This document shows positions 1 to 5,485 of a DNA stretch of 46,006 bases, piece by piece (positions within the stretch are counted from its first letter, which is position 1; every line of letters begins with the position of its first letter). The DNA comes from an uncultured Clostridia bacterium. GTDB taxonomy: Bacteria; Bacillota; Clostridia; Lachnospirales; Lachnospiraceae. The stretch spans positions 1-46,006 of the forward strand of contig CANDNA010000026.1 of the NCBI GenBank assembly GCA_947385955.1, read 5' to 3'. Made by a program: the position numbers and the translations under genes. Below the pieces are notes generated by a model. It was not told the DNA's origin, did no database searches, and saw only the letters and a program-made list of their open reading frames with translations.

Positions 1-1824
1 CGTACTGATCCCGCCGGTCTGTAAATTCACCTCATTGAAAAAATCGCCGTAACTGTAATGTCTTGTATTCATCAGTCCCAGCACCGCCTTATAGACAGCC
101 AGATAAGGGAACCAGGGCTGCGGAATATTGCTCACATCAAATAACAGACGCACATAACCGATCCCGTTTGTAAAAATATCATGATGCAAAATGACAGTAC
201 CGTCACATACCTCCTCCCGGTTATGATAGGCTTCTGCCTTCTGTGTCATATCTTCCCGGCGCAGCAGGGGGATGGTCTCCACGGCTTCCCTGGAATCCGG
301 TGTTTCCTGATATGCCTCCAGTTCTCTGGTTTCCCTGACAAGAGCTTCCAGCTCTTCTCTGCTCATGGAAGCCTTCAGCGCTGCCAGTCTCTCTTTCTGC
401 TCTTTTTCTTCTCTGGCCGCCAGATTTCTCACCGGCTCCACCATCACCACCGACCTGTGGGTATTGTCCAGCAGATACCTGGCAATCAGCCCTTCAAAAT
501 AGTCTGTCCCGGCCTTTTCTTTCATATCGGAAAAGGTCTGCGCTGCCTCTACATGAAGAAAAGGCGCCCGCTCATCATACAGCCAGCTGTCCAGTGCCTG
601 CAGGCCGTACATCAGTCCCTTTGGATAAGAGCCAAAGTCCGCTTCCCTGTACTTAAATTCATAATAATTAATGGCTGCCCGCAGCGCTTTTTTGTCAATA
701 CCGTCCCTGCACAGCCCCTCCAGCGTACTGCGGATCAGGGACAGAAACGCTTCCTTCCTGGAAATATCCGTATGCCTGGATACAATGCTGAAATAAGGCT
801 GTTTGATACCGTTTTCATATATGCTGTAAATTTCCCTGCCAATGCCTGCATCCGTCAGCGCCTGCTTTATCGGCGCTCCCGGTGCGGAGCAGAGCACATA
901 ATCCAGTATCTGAAACGCCACATACAGTTCCCGGTCCAGACTGCTGCCAATCACCGTGTTGTATGCCAGATACCCATTGTCCTTCAACGGCTCGCTGTCG
1001 GTTATGGGGTATTGCTTTTTTACTTCCACAGGCGTTTTGAAATGCTCCTGGTCCCGGATCCCGGAATCCACGGAAATGGCATCAAAATGAGACAGATAGG
1101 CCCGGTCTATAAAATCCAGCCGCTCTGCCATATCCATATTGCCGTACAGATAAATATAGCTGTTGGAAGGATGGTAATATCTGCTGTGGAACGCCAGAAA
1201 ATCTTCATAGGTCAGATCGGGAATGCAGGCCGGGTCACCGCCGGATTCCACGCCGTATGGCGTGTCCGGAAACAGGGAGTTAAACACTTCCCGGTCCAGC
1301 ACATCATCGGGAGAAGAAAAGGCGCCCTTCATCTCATTGTATACCACTCCGTTGATTTTCAGCTCCTGCGCTTCATCCTCCAGTTCATAATGCCAGCCCT
1401 CCTGCCTGAAAATCTTCTCTTCCCGGCTGATATTGGGATAAAAAACAGCATCCAGATAGACATGCATCAGATTCTTAAAATCCTGATCGTTGCAGCTTGC
1501 CACCGGATACACCGTTTTATCCGGATAGGTCATGGCATTGAGAAAGGTATTCAGAGATCCCTGGGCCAGCTCAATAAACGGATCCTTTACCGGAAAGCTG
1601 CGGGAACCGCACAACACGGAATGTTCCAGAATATGCGCCACTCCCGTACTGTCTTTGGGAGGCGTGCGGAATCCGATGTAAAATACCTTATTGTCATCCT
1701 CATTGGACAACAGCGCCACTCTGGCCCCTGTCTTTTTATGCCGGAGCAGAAAGCTCTCCGAAGCCAGCTCTTCGATCCTGTGTGTCTCTATCACTTCATA
1801 TGCCGTACATGATTTGATGTCCAT
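1..1824 (-). CDS. M16C metalloprotease (presequence protease/insulinase family), N-terminal part
   Basis: Partial gene: the frame is open for 608 codons and runs off the left edge of the window. The protein carries the inverted zinc motif HILEH (H64, E67, H68) inside the family signature around HSVLCGS. That context, together with the later segments GVVYNEMKGAFS and TPYGVESGGDP, fits the M16C branch (PreP, about 970 residues), a clam-shell zinc protease that degrades peptides inside its chamber. No signal peptide is seen, so it is probably cytoplasmic. The ATG at 1824 was chosen because GGAGG lies just upstream (about 1830-1835). At the window edge the frame reads NLQTGGIS, a conserved stretch of the C-terminal half. 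The family is clear; the physiological substrate is not. Confidence 0.92.
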   Translation of the reverse strand, partial: MDIKSCTAYEVIETHRIEELASESFLLRHKKTGARVALLSNEDDNKVFYIGFRTPPKDSTGVAHILEHSVLCGSRSFPVKDPFIELAQGSLNTFLNAMTYPDKTVYPVASCNDQDFKNLMHVYLDAVFYPNISREEKIFRQEGWHYELEDEAQELKINGVVYNEMKGAFSSPDDVLDREVFNSLFPDTPYGVESGGDPACIPDLTYEDFLAFHSRYYHPSNSYIYLYGNMDMAERLDFIDRAYLSHFDAISVDSGIRDQEHFKTPVEVKKQYPITDSEPLKDNGYLAYNTVIGSSLDRELYVAFQILDYVLCSAPGAPIKQALTDAGIGREIYSIYENGIKQPYFSIVSRHTDISRKEAFLSLIRSTLEGLCRDGIDKKALRAAINYYEFKYREADFGSYPKGLMYGLQALDSWLYDERAPFLHVEAAQTFSDMKEKAGTDYFEGLIARYLLDNTHRSVVMVEPVRNLAAREEKEQKERLAALKASMSREELEALVRETRELEAYQETPDSREAVETIPLLRREDMTQKAEAYHNREEVCDGTVILHHDIFTNGIGYVRLLFDVSNIPQPWFPYLAVYKAVLGLMNTRHYSYGDFFNEVNLQTGGIST

Positions 1825-1933: not shown

Positions 1934-1974
1934 GAAGATTCTGAGGGAGATGCGGGAAACACACAGGGAATAGT

Positions 1975-2207
1975 ATTCTGAAAGGGATGGCATCTGCCGC
2001 TTCTGCTTCAGACTACGGGAATAAGATATTCTAACTGTTGTGGCATATATTGGGAAAAGCATGCAACCGAACTCTATGTGCCATCCAGGCACAAAGAGTT
2101 CTTTTCCGGGCATCCATGCCCGGAAATTGCATAGCCAGACACAACAGTAAGAATATCTAATCCCCTCCGTAGGCGCAGGAAGCAGCAGATACCATCCCTT
2201 TCAGAAT
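1975..2207 (-). repeat. Structured palindromic element, copy A
   Basis: About 233 bp with imperfect terminal inverted repeats of roughly 80 bp: ATTCTGAAAGGGATGG begins the sequence on both strands, and GATATTC..ACTGTTGTG follows inside each arm. The centre holds two compact hairpins, at 2070-2100 (13-bp arms, one mismatch, 5-nt loop) and 2103-2126 (arms of about 10 bp). The reverse complement aligns along its length with copy B (4220-4450), and the first hairpin shows paired base changes between copies. It fills most of the 485-bp space between the M16C gene and the AT-rich cassette. It codes for nothing convincing; a 65-codon frame at 1916-2113 follows from the palindrome. It could be a MITE-like element or a structured RNA. 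Confidence 0.75.
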
Positions 2208-2309
2208 CATATCTTTATGGCAAGACGTTTCTTTAACCATTTCTAACCAATAGTTCCAGAACAATTTAGAAACTTGGGATAAAAATGAGCATTCTATTAT
2301 TCTATTTGA

Positions 2310-3437
2310 TTAATATTTGTTTTTTATTGGCTTCCATCTTTTCTCTGGTTTAAAGAGACTAAATATGAAAATTATTTTCCAAAAAATAAATATAAATGGA
2401 AAAATGAAAACATATCTGATATTTTTACCAATTTCATATCGTATAAATATCAAATTAATAATAAAACTCCACAAATATAATGATATCATAATAAATAAAT
2501 ATATTTTGGGATTGATTAGCGAAATGGTTGCTAAACAAAAAACAGCCATGTTTATATATCCTATCAAAAGAAATATTCTTGCAACTCCTATTAACCTTTT
2601 ATCCAACATATATGAATGATACTTTTTTATAATTAATATTTGTCCTGAAAGCCATCGCCTTTGTTGAATCCACAAATCCGAAAACTTATATGGATGTTTT
2701 GTTTTCACTTTCATTTCATGACAATAATAAATTTTATATCCTTTCAGTAACGCATCAAAAGAAAAGCCAATATCTTCAACCAGCGTTTTTCTATCCCATT
2801 TCACTTGTTTAAGTACATCTGGAGATATTAATACTCCTTTTCCACAAATAATTACTGATCTTTCTAATTTATTTTGATAAAACATAAAATTATTTATTAT
2901 TTGCTGAAAAAAAGTCATAAAATATGATACTGTACTTCTTTTATATTGTATATTACAGATTTGACCTTGTACAATTTTATATCCATTTTCAAAATTATTA
3001 TGAGCAAATATAAAAAATTTTTCATCAAAAATCGTATCTGCATCAGATATACATAAATAATTATAATCACATATCTTTTCTTTATAATTACTACAAAAAG
3101 ATTTTAATAATGAACCTTTCGTATTTTCTTTATTATCAATACTATATATTTTTACTTCTCTTGACCTAGCAATTTCAATTGTTTTATCTGTACATCTATC
3201 ATTTAATAAAATAATATCAATAAAATTTTGTGGATAATCTGCTTTTCTAATGGAATCAATAGCATCCAATATTTGAATTTCTTCATTATGCACTGGAATA
3301 ATAACTAAAAATTTCGTATTAACATGACTTTCGTATTTTTTATTGTACTGATAATCATGCAAACATTTAGAAATTTTCAAAGAAAATAATATCAAAATCG
3401 CTTCACTTATTATAAATAACATTAAAATATATATCAA
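2310..3437 (-). CDS. Membrane-bound GT2 glycosyltransferase, processive type
   Basis: The 375-residue protein has one N-terminal membrane helix, a cytoplasmic GT-A domain and a cluster of C-terminal membrane helices. Visible GT2 motifs are IPVHNE, NDRCTD, the metal-binding DAD in ISDADT, the catalytic-base segment VEDIGFS and the acceptor-site QQRRW. The D,D,D,QxxRW set is typical of processive enzymes such as cellulose, hyaluronan or poly-GlcNAc synthases. It should move sugar from a nucleotide-sugar to a polysaccharide or lipid at the cytoplasmic membrane; the sugar cannot be told. A TTG at 3437 after AGGTGA is the likely start, with ATG 3422 as alternative. It lies 15 bp after the small membrane-protein gene, as one operon. 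Base use is far more AT-rich than the flanks, which suggests acquisition by transfer. Confidence 0.85.
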   Translation of the reverse strand: MIYILMLFIISEAILILFSLKISKCLHDYQYNKKYESHVNTKFLVIIPVHNEEIQILDAIDSIRKADYPQNFIDIILLNDRCTDKTIEIARSREVKIYSIDNKENTKGSLLKSFCSNYKEKICDYNYLCISDADTIFDEKFFIFAHNNFENGYKIVQGQICNIQYKRSTVSYFMTFFQQIINNFMFYQNKLERSVIICGKGVLISPDVLKQVKWDRKTLVEDIGFSFDALLKGYKIYYCHEMKVKTKHPYKFSDLWIQQRRWLSGQILIIKKYHSYMLDKRLIGVARIFLLIGYINMAVFCLATISLINPKIYLFIMISLYLWSFIINLIFIRYEIGKNIRYVFIFPFIFIFWKIIFIFSLFKPEKRWKPIKNKY

Positions 3438-3452
3438 TTTTTATCACCTATA

Positions 3453-3998
3453 CTATATTTTATTTTGAGTATGAAGTAAATTTTCACATTCAATATATAC
3501 TTCACTTAATTTCTGATAAGTTTCGTTTAACATGTCAGAATTATTTAGACTATTATTTGAAAGCTTTAAATTACTATATAAAATACTGTCTTCCATTTTT
3601 ATACAACATTCAGAAAATAAATCAACAAATTTTTGCAATGGAAATAATAAATTTATACCATCGCATAACGCCGCAAAAACTAATAAAGCATTTGAAAATT
3701 TTGATTTATCAACCAGACTATATATAATAAAAAAAGTTGTTAAAACTCCTAATATTCTTAATCCATAAGATAAAAATGTAAAAAAATATAATATTCTCCT
3801 GTAGGCTGCTGTTTTATCTAAGAAAAACCAATACTGTTCATACTTTAATACCTCTATATCTCCCCAATAGTTTATTAATCTTTTTTTCAATGGCCTAAAT
3901 GGCATGGAAATAAAAAGCAATAAAATACCAATCAAAAAAACGCCTAAAAATAGTATTACATAAAATAGCATATTTCCATCAACTGAAGTACGGCTCAT
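3453..3998 (-). CDS. Small membrane protein, possibly SLATT-like
   Basis: The protein has 181 residues: an N-terminal hydrophobic helix (about 10-32), a basic segment, then two adjacent hydrophobic helices (about 70-92 and 99-118) and a polar helical C-terminus. Two close helices followed by a cytoplasmic helical tail, with an aromatic and basic lead-in (YWFFLDKTAAYRR), resembles the SLATT family of predicted two-helix effectors. That resemblance is by eye and weak. The gene is first in a two-gene AT-rich operon with the GT2 enzyme 15 bp downstream, so it may instead be a partner or regulator of that synthase. AGGAG lies about 9 nt before ATG 3998. Confidence 0.6.
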   Translation of the reverse strand: MSRTSVDGNMLFYVILFLGVFLIGILLLFISMPFRPLKKRLINYWGDIEVLKYEQYWFFLDKTAAYRRILYFFTFLSYGLRILGVLTTFFIIYSLVDKSKFSNALLVFAALCDGINLLFPLQKFVDLFSECCIKMEDSILYSNLKLSNNSLNNSDMLNETYQKLSEVYIECENLLHTQNKI

Positions 3999-4035
3999 AA
4001 AAAGTAACTCCTTAATATTATTAGATATTTTTTAT

Positions 4036-4044
4036 ATTATAGCA
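4036..4044 (-). promoter_or_regulatory. Extended -10 promoter of the AT-rich operon
   Basis: On the minus strand the sequence reads TGCTATAAT, a perfect extended -10, 38 bp before the start of the 181-aa gene. There is no good -35, as expected for this promoter type. Confidence 0.65.
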
Positions 4045-4105
4045 TAAACCATACATAGATTGCATTGCCATTAATAGCACCAACACTGACGTATTCTGTC
4101 TCGGT

Positions 4106-4276
4106 TTACTGGAACTCTTTGAATTCCAGTAAAATACATACAATTAGTACAGCAATCAAAGTGTACACCAACATTCCAATAGCATAAAAAGAAATCGCAA
4201 AAATCTGCAATGTCGATATACTTCTGGCAGGGATAAATATTCCTGCACCTGCTCCTACGAAAGGTATTAGACATTC
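4106..4276 (-). pseudogene. C-terminal remnant of a polytopic membrane protein
   Basis: An open minus-strand frame of 56 codons without a start codon reads as the end of a membrane protein: a Gly/Ala-rich turn (VGAGAGIF), a long hydrophobic stretch (about 30 residues, including FYAIGMLVYTLIAVLIV) and a short charged tail ending in EFKEFQ. Its upstream part overlaps the outer arm of structured element B, and a stop codon lies directly upstream at 4277-4279. The simplest reading is that the 5' part was lost when element B or the AT-rich cassette arrived. The original family is not recognised. Confidence 0.4.
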
Positions 4277-4450
4277 TTACTGTTATCATACCCCAGTAAT
4301 TTCCGAGCATGAAAACCCGAAAAAGGACTCTATGCGCCCGGACGGCGCATAGAGTCCGGTTGCACGCTTACCAGAACTTATGCCACAACACTCAGAAAAT
4401 CTTATACCTGTAATCCTGCATAGGCACAGAAATATCCATCCTTGTCGGAG
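4220..4450 (+). repeat. Structured palindromic element, copy B
   Basis: About 231 bp, aligned with the reverse complement of copy A. Shared landmarks in order are CTACG..GG.ATTAGA.ATTCTTACTGTT, AATTTCCG.GCATG, ACTCT.TG.GCC with its partner strand, CGGTTGCA.GCTT, and ATGCCACAACA. The central hairpin (4325-4357) is a perfect 14-bp stem with loop CGGAC. Against copy A it has paired changes (AA/TT to GG/CC at the base, T-A to C-G near the loop) and repairs the one mismatch. The outer arms also pair with each other imperfectly. It faces copy A in opposite orientation across the AT-rich cassette, and no coding function is seen. Confidence 0.75.
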
Positions 4451-4501
4451 AGTCGCCATTATCATAGCTTTCTAATATCCATCTTCCCGCTTCTGGAAAA
4501 T

Positions 4502-4530
4502 TTGACAAAAAACCTCATTTTGTGTATCTT
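4502..4530 (+). promoter_or_regulatory. Promoter of the EamA transporter gene
   Basis: A perfect TTGACA (4502-4507) and TATCTT (4525-4530) are separated by 17 bp, 46 bp before the start codon. Confidence 0.7.
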
Positions 4531-4576: not shown

Positions 4577-5485
4577 ATGAAACAACAAAAAAACCTCAAA
4601 CGAACAGGAATCCTGATCACTCTGGCAGGCGGCTGTCTGTGGGGACTGTCCGGAGCCTGCGGGCAGTTTTTGTTTACGGCAAAAAATGCCTGCTCCGACT
4701 GGCTGGTGCCCATCCGTCTGGTTCTGGCAGGCTTTTTACTGACAGCATGGTATCTGCTGCGCAGGCCCGCACTGACCCGGCAGATCTGGAGCAACCGGAA
4801 AAGTGCCTTTACGCTGCTTTGTTATGGCATACTGGGTATGATGCTCTGTCAGTATTCCTATTTTAAGGCAATCGAATATTCCAATGCCGGAACGGCAACC
4901 GTACTGCAGTACCTTTCTCCTGTGCTGATTATGCTCGTTATGTGCCTCCGGGAAAGACGTCTGCCCGGCATCGTCGATGTGGCTGCCGTACTCCTGGCCC
5001 TCTCGGGCATTTATCTTCTGGCAACCCACGGACAGTCCGGCCAGCTGGCAGTGTCCGGTCAGGCTCTGTTCTGGGGACTGTTTTCCGCCGTCACTGTGGT
5101 ACTTTACAATATGATTCCGGAAGGGCTGATGAAAACCTATCCCACCCCGTTTCTGCTGGGATGGGCCATGCTGATTGGCGGTACTGTCCTGTGCTTTCTG
5201 CGCAGACCCTGGCAGTACCATCCGGTCATGGACAGGGAAACGCTTCTGTTTCTTGCCATCATTATCCTGTTTGGCACCATCCTTTCCTTTTCCCTGTATA
5301 TGCAGGGAGTCAAACTGATCGGGCCGGAAAAAGCCAGCCTGTATGCCTGCGTTGAGCCGGTAGCCGCCACCCTGTTTTCTGCATTCTGGCTGCATGCGTC
5401 TTTTCTCTGGATCGATATCCTGGGATTTGCCTGCATCGTATCCACCCTATTTCTGATTACACTGTGGGGAAACCGGAAACAATAA
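4577..5485 (+). CDS. EamA-family (DMT superfamily) metabolite transporter
   Basis: The protein has 302 residues, the usual length for a ten-helix drug/metabolite transporter with two EamA repeats. The first repeat begins with the typical GGCLWGLSGA segment. The second starts near residue 155 (GQALFWGLFSAVTVVLYN) and ends with GPEKASLYACVEPVAA, the signature near the end of the second repeat. Members export amino acids, purines or other small metabolites; the substrate here cannot be inferred. GAGAGGAG precedes the ATG. It is a single-gene unit with its own promoter and is convergent with the DUF4132 gene. Its base composition matches the main chromosome, unlike the AT-rich genes just upstream. 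Confidence 0.9.
   Translation: MKQQKNLKRTGILITLAGGCLWGLSGACGQFLFTAKNACSDWLVPIRLVLAGFLLTAWYLLRRPALTRQIWSNRKSAFTLLCYGILGMMLCQYSYFKAIEYSNAGTATVLQYLSPVLIMLVMCLRERRLPGIVDVAAVLLALSGIYLLATHGQSGQLAVSGQALFWGLFSAVTVVLYNMIPEGLMKTYPTPFLLGWAMLIGGTVLCFLRRPWQYHPVMDRETLLFLAIIILFGTILSFSLYMQGVKLIGPEKASLYACVEPVAATLFSAFWLHASFLWIDILGFACIVSTLFLITLWGNRKQ

Follow-up and report, generated by a model that had tools for sequence, protein, structure and literature searches.

Within a 46,006-nucleotide stretch of genomic DNA (hereafter, the window) from an uncultured Clostridia bacterium of the Lachnospiraceae (assembly GCA_947385955.1, contig CANDNA010000026.1), two inverted palindromic sequences, elements A and B, flank an AT-rich two-gene cassette. 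We interpret A and B as two independent, ageing insertions of a palindromic element resembling a miniature inverted-repeat transposable element (MITE), mobilised in trans, with the cassette lying between them by accident; we put the probability of this reading at about 0.88. Both elements belong to the Rfam family RF01731 (TwoAYGGAY), a candidate RNA described in 2010 and typed "Cis-reg" by Rfam (PMC2864571). In the relatives that we examined, the RF01731 fold forms the centre of mobile DNA elements, most of its cores lying between inverted ends in elements of 295–315 bp; a second family, RF01699 (Clostridiales-1), occurs with the same ends.

Elements A and B are inverted copies of the TwoAYGGAY fold

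An Rfam scan matched A to RF01731 on the minus strand (111.9 bits, E = 2.2e-19) and B to the same family on the plus strand (63 bits, E = 2.8e-8), both in excess of the gathering score of 43 bits and far above chance level. The two copies are complementary along inverted arms of 118 nt (2011–2128/4298–4415, 79%) and 37 nt (2143–2179/4248–4284, 86%), and B is 75% identical to A across about 201 nt. A is also palindromic within itself, with arms at 1970–2003/2179–2212 and 2017–2042/2140–2165 (both 88%), and the Rfam match of B shows the same fold with more of its pairs broken. An earlier note on this DNA, drawn up from the sequence alone, had described an inverted pair of imperfect palindromes with a central hairpin whose bases change in pairs between the copies. 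We found the same, with the paired changes at 2069–2101 in A and 4325–4357 in B. The note had missed that B lost the conserved GGA from the loop of the other hairpin, hairpin 1, which reads CAUGAAAACC compared with CAUGGAUGCC in A; A has GGA in both loops.

Alignment of the 17 copies in the same genome indicated that A ends like TATTCTGAAAGGGATGG.../...CCATCCCTTTCAGAATC, which is probably an eroded inverted repeat, and that A and B belong to a subtype with ends reading like GATTCTGAAAGGG. Local alignments of the copies in this genome ran past their ends into flanking DNA, and no element limits are based on them.

TwoAYGGAY copies are dispersed and vary in number among close relatives

The genome that contains the window (3.16 Mb, 97% complete) has 17 RF01731 copies. 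Across ten genomes of the genus, this one included, the counts were 17, 0, 55, 0, 0, 0, 2, 0, 8 and 55; two of the five zero-copy genomes are 95 and 99% complete and the other three 79–83%. The element was present in 39 of 250 genomes sampled from the family (37 above the Rfam cut-off), with 31–50 copies in five of the 40 genomes that were scanned more fully, and in 36 of 391 genomes sampled from the class (27 above the cut-off). Most copies lie outside genes: 87 of 101 cores were free of called open reading frames (ORFs) of at least 100 codons, and the 14 that overlapped one, 6 of them wholly inside it, mostly did so with ORFs of 100–215 codons that may be spurious.

In one genome of the survey (G143; we cite genomes, contigs and loci by handles in G, C and L), the copies on C3, C6, C20, C30, C46, C59, C66, C106, C112 and C148 begin no more than about 260 bases from where the contig ends. 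Near-identical copies seemingly broke this assembly, and the genome may in reality hold more than 50 copies.

Relatives of A and B have terminal inverted repeats and fixed-length target duplications

Evidence that the element moves comes mostly from relatives of A and B. When copies from two congeners were aligned, the Rfam model was found to span only the middle of the element, with conservation extending to terminal inverted repeats that read GATTCGGGTGTCAAAAG in G250 and CACGACAAACGCATAAATGAACA in G257. A pattern search for facing pairs of these ends recovered elements of about 308 and 400 bp with the core, plus shorter ones lacking it. We compared the bases just outside unique end pairs and used 2000 shuffled pairings as a control. 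G250-type ends (19 pairs from G250 and 2 from G256) were flanked by 7-bp repeats matching at 6 or more of 7 positions in 8 of 21 cases, and G257-type ends (16 pairs from G257 and 1 from G256) by 10-bp repeats matching at 9 or more of 10 positions in 5 of 17 cases; neither level was reached in any of the 2000 shuffles. No comparable signal was seen at 5, 6, 8, 9 or 10 bp for the first type, or at 6–9, 11 or 12 bp for the second.

At least 116 public-genome stretches contain the exact end GATTCGGGTGTCAAAAG; among the 80 stretches listed, 67 are titled as Lachnospiraceae or as genera that we place there. Unique pairs with these ends had 7-bp repeats in 27 of 39 cases (26 of 38 without L339, which is G250's own), compared with a mean of 1.7 in the shuffles and none of 2000 reaching the observed count, and there was no comparable signal at 5, 6, 8, 9 or 10 bp. 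RF01731 lay inside 15 of the 16 pairs of 295–315 bp (the exception was L317) and inside none of the 20 shorter pairs scanned, out of 23. Three of the shorter pairs, 193–194 bp long, instead matched RF01699 (L314:3093–3259, L351:2558–2724 and L368:4605–4771). In each, the match spans one inverted end and most of the element, and perfect 7-bp repeats lie outside.

The 7-bp-duplicating elements (G250/G256 and L301–L380) prefer AT-rich DNA just behind T-runs: a T-run pointing towards the element was seen less than 25 nt away in 35 of 57 cases, compared with 17 at 25–50 nt and 5–12 beyond 50 nt. Less often the site lies behind a terminator-like hairpin; of the 57 sites, 12 have one within 60 nt that faces the element and 4 have one facing away.

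In G257 (L053–L072), the same core is combined with quite different terminal repeats and with 10-bp rather than 7-bp duplications, within one genus.

The elements are short, dispersed and multi-copy, lie mostly outside genes and, in relatives, have terminal inverted repeats and duplications of fixed length, all features of MITEs. The suggestion in the earlier note that A and B are MITE-like is therefore strongly supported by the dispersed copies, the ends and duplications in relatives, and the copy-number differences within the genus.

Base pairing in the fold is symmetric between strands

From 154 distinct copies in 32 genomes we retained 61 that were less than 80% identical. As a control we used 30 SAM riboswitches from related genomes (30 of 34 matches, those with loci), 23 of whose 30 genomes are among the 32 that supplied the copies. 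The consensus fold of the 61 copies has 35 pairs, 34 of them occurring as two or more Watson–Crick types, so the covariation is real and strong. Together with the 17 copies in this genome and up to 55 in congeners, it is contrary to the outcome that the earlier note had named as refuting its reading, an absence of further copies and of covariation beyond the pair.

GU filled 44 cells of the fold and AC 50, versus 33 and 8 in the riboswitches (p = 2.9e-4 for the contrast). GU and AC are thus about equally rare, which indicates that the pairing is indifferent to the strand that is read and is kept largely as DNA. Consistent with this, the folding energy of the sense strand was below that of the antisense strand in 38 of 61 copies (Wilcoxon p = 0.35), compared with 28 of 30 riboswitches. 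Selection at the RNA level was accordingly rejected, with neither a GU/AC asymmetry nor a difference in folding energy between strands. The earlier note had left the choice between a folded RNA and a folded DNA structure; the evidence leans to DNA, since the pairing is strand-symmetric and unlike that of the control.

Other mismatches filled 224 of 2105 cells, versus 5 of 837 in the riboswitches, and part of this noise may be misalignment. Hairpin 1 was also scored copy by copy in 148 of the 154 copies, giving 15 GU and 11 AC among 1332 cells; this symmetric scoring replaced a count with a GU reward, which we discarded as biased. Hairpin 2 varies in stem length and was scorable in 18 of 154 copies, and we base no claim on its count.

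Proposed mechanism

We propose that the element is a short, palindromic piece of DNA, bounded by terminal inverted repeats, that a transposase would move in trans. Such an enzyme would make staggered cuts, of 7 bp in the main form and 10 bp in a second form, and would favour AT-rich targets immediately behind T-runs, of which some resemble terminators. Rfam's TwoAYGGAY corresponds to the conserved fold in the middle of the element. The arms of this fold stay complementary mainly as DNA, which may reflect use of the hairpin in its DNA form or self-correction of the palindrome by template switching. A and B would have moved in the same way as their relatives, and the foreign cassette would have come to lie between them by the accident of an insertion-prone intergenic region. 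The position of A and B around the cassette looks incidental. That this site is free of A, cassette and B in all four comparable congeners also counts in favour of the proposal.

Several observations weigh against this interpretation. Close copies face outward far too often for independent insertion, in 10 of 11 pairs less than 3 kb apart in the genus (p = 8e-6) and in 19 of 24 among all the matches listed (p = 4e-8 under random orientation). A search between and beside the inverted ends at L113–L142 and L301–L380, with the proteins of seven loci inspected by eye, turned up no convincing transposase or autonomous relative bounded by such ends; these are drafts and stretches of up to 8 kb, and one may exist unseen. 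We therefore call the element MITE-like rather than a MITE. Copies in the window's own genome lack any end within two mismatches of the G250 form or three of the G257 form, and inspection of A and B revealed no target duplication; the two are therefore assigned to the class by homology. In addition, GGA is retained in the loops on just one of the strands (loop 1 has it in 118 of 148 scored copies) and T.T mismatches are frequent, in CTTAG/CTTAG; plain correction of a palindrome is thus insufficient as an explanation.

In the 61-copy alignment, CTTAG is present on both sides of the outer stem as a direct, not inverted, pair, which gives the common T.T mismatch; a second CTTAG lies about 10 positions off.

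Alternative explanations

The Rfam typing implies that TwoAYGGAY is a cis-regulatory leader. This would agree with the 87 of 101 cores that are clear of called ORFs, and in the window A and B each point to their own downstream flanking gene. However, among 101 copies in 8 genomes the next downstream gene was on the same strand in 42 cases and on the opposite strand in 59 (neighbours were called simply as the longest ORFs, and ORFs overlapping the core were removed before the count), and the discoverers' table grades the family as not cis-regulatory (Weinberg et al. 2010, PMC2864571). A leader as the general role is contradicted by the orientation count and we regard it as very improbable, while individual domesticated copies may act as leaders. 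An improbable reading too, if less extremely so, is that the two-gene cassette was brought in by a composite transposon or an integron-like unit, with A and B as its ends; the earlier note had named a cassette-mobilising element as one option. In all four congeners with both flanking genes matched on one contig (G254, G256, G250 and G251), A, the cassette and B are absent together and just 150–350 bp, approximately, separate the matched flank stretches; G255, G080 and G252 (left gene only), G257 (two contigs) and G253 (neither gene) were uninformative at this site. The outward facing of close copies also recurs: a script count of pairs less than 3 kb apart over the complete genus listing gave 10 outward, 0 inward and 1 in the same direction, and a hand count over the genus plus the other matches listed gave 19, 0 and 5. 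Beyond the genus, the matches listed contributed 9 outward pairs (two each in G086 and G008, and one each in G037, G208, G143, G022 and G433), no inward pair and 4 in the same direction (G166, G060, G042 and G476). Against a composite unit, A scores 112 bits and B, with its loop lost, 63, which indicates a difference in age or decay. No matching repeat or target duplication was seen by eye outside the unit, where the intergenic sequences of the congeners are too diverged to place the exact junction. Moreover, a member of a G250 pair (C85:24699) is bounded by its own inverted ends and 7-bp duplication, and a G250 pair brackets argJ beside argB, in an arginine gene cluster, so not all pairs are one unit. 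A composite or cassette transposon, suggested by the recurring outward pairs, is not supported given the A/B decay difference and the argJ pair.

It is less doubtful, if still on the unlikely side, that the core is a CsrA-binding, sponge-like RNA carried by the mobile palindrome, with two GGA-loop hairpins that would bind CsrA when transcribed from outside and so either buffer the impact of an insertion on the host or titrate CsrA. CsrA binding was already proposed for TwoAYGGAY from its loop motifs in a 2014 paper (PMC4333381), and the CsrA-type GGA of loop 1 is common, as given above. In the family sample, CsrA (PF02599) was found in 38 of 39 genomes with the element compared with 90 of 211 others (88 of 211 at the Pfam cut-off; p ~ 1e-11), the exception being G168, which is 93% complete; among class-sample genomes from other families the figures were 25 of 30 and 86 of 345 (p = 2.7e-10). 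These statistics carry no phylogenetic correction and the genomes are not independent. However, flagellin is an equally good correlate: of the 36 element-bearing genomes of the class sample 33 have it, compared with 109 of the 355 that lack the element (p = 5e-13). The association is therefore with the CsrA/flagellar state, or with lineages that have this state in common. All 125 class genomes with CsrA have flagellin and 17 have flagellin only; the element occurs in 33 of the 142 flagellin genomes versus 3 of the 249 others, and within the flagellin genomes in 31 of 125 with CsrA versus 2 of 17 without (p = 0.36). Five of these 36 element-bearing genomes (80, 84, 88, 95 and 98% complete) have no CsrA match, loop 1 is without GGA in 21 of 23 G250 copies, mostly reading ACGAT, and the stems show no strand preference and no excess of GU over AC.

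Two side observations concern these subjects. Outward pairs were also seen in G000 (C18), G257 and G250, with some of the G257 pairs joining two subtypes, and the genus has one further same-direction pair, 3.07 kb apart. Extra, diverged CsrA-like matches (E ~ 1e-13 to 1e-17), in frames of about 60–130 codons, occur in G008, G037, G042, G060, G066, G157 and others.

Relation to known families

Short, dispersed palindromic elements that are mobilised in trans and sometimes occur as inverted pairs are familiar in bacteria as Correia elements, RUP, ERIC, BOX and REP/BIME. Compared with these bacterial MITEs and palindromic repeats, the element described here has one folded core with two sets of ends and duplications of 7 and 10 bp, and is curated as an RNA family. 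By score, A and B are members of RF01731 (Weinberg et al. 2010, PMC2864571), a family of two hairpins with AYGGAY-type loops, of which A has GGA in both loops while B has lost it from loop 1. The family is filed as an RNA, whereas in the relatives of A and B it lies at the centre of a palindrome that has inverted repeats and target duplications and pairs strand-symmetrically. RF01699, filed as a small RNA, shares the inverted ends and 7-bp repeats in L314, L351 and L368 but has another, shorter core, and an Rfam scan gave no match to it in the window. There is a precedent for treating a transposable palindrome as an RNA family in the plant MITEs curated as microRNAs in Rfam and miRBase (PMC4383904); there the hosts are plants and the RNAs are microRNAs, whereas here they are bacteria and a supposed regulatory RNA. 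A literature search returned no report tying TwoAYGGAY or Clostridiales-1 to transposition, with subscription journals and supplements out of reach.

RF01731 and RF01699 thus appear to include, and perhaps to be, transposable palindromes, and functions assigned to them from conservation and covariation need rethinking. Counting GU against AC with a riboswitch control is a cheap test that distinguishes a folded RNA from self-complementary DNA and could be used for other orphan families. If the tie to CsrA is more than a link shared with flagella, it would point to a trans-acting partner of the element. A broader conjecture, which we hold a little more loosely than CsrA binding itself, is that TwoAYGGAY is a portable DNA-hairpin module of more than one Clostridia transposition system, whose GGA loops would bind CsrA as RNA. 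The elements would then be selfish palindromes tuned to the motility regulator of their hosts, with Clostridiales-1 and others as further modules.

Cassette and flanking genes

Features of the window discussed here are collected in Table 1.

Table 1 Positions of the elements, their parts and the neighbouring genes in the window
Feature	Position	Strand	Basis
Left flanking gene, M16-family peptidase, extends past window start	1..1824	-	right limit (~1824) read from sequence
Stretch with A, cassette and B missing in congeners, approximate limits	1935..4505	.	comparison with 4 congeners
Element A, full palindromic element	1970..2212	-	inverted repeats; alignment of the genome's 17 copies
RF01731 (TwoAYGGAY) core of A	2010..2172	-	111.9 bits
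A hairpin 2 (covarying hairpin of the earlier note), GGA loop on minus strand	2069..2101	-	sequence, alignment
A hairpin 1, loop AUGGAU on minus strand	2104..2126	-	alignment
Cassette gene 1, GT2 glycosyltransferase, 375 aa	2310..3437	-	PF13632, E = 2.9e-22
Cassette gene 2, product of 181 aa with hydrophobic stretches seen by eye	3453..3998	-	no family match
Element B, more decayed copy, orientation opposite to A	4215..4450	+	inverted arms; identity to A
RF01731 core of B	4255..4416	+	63 bits
B hairpin 1, loop GGA lost	4301..4323	+	alignment
B hairpin 2, compensatory changes relative to A	4325..4357	+	sequence, alignment
Right flanking gene, EamA-family permease	4577..5485	+	family match

The second cassette protein had no match in Pfam, NCBIfam or PADLOC. 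As the earlier note had stated, the cassette is AT-rich: the GC fraction is 0.21–0.26 at about 2200–4000, compared with about 0.48–0.56 outside.

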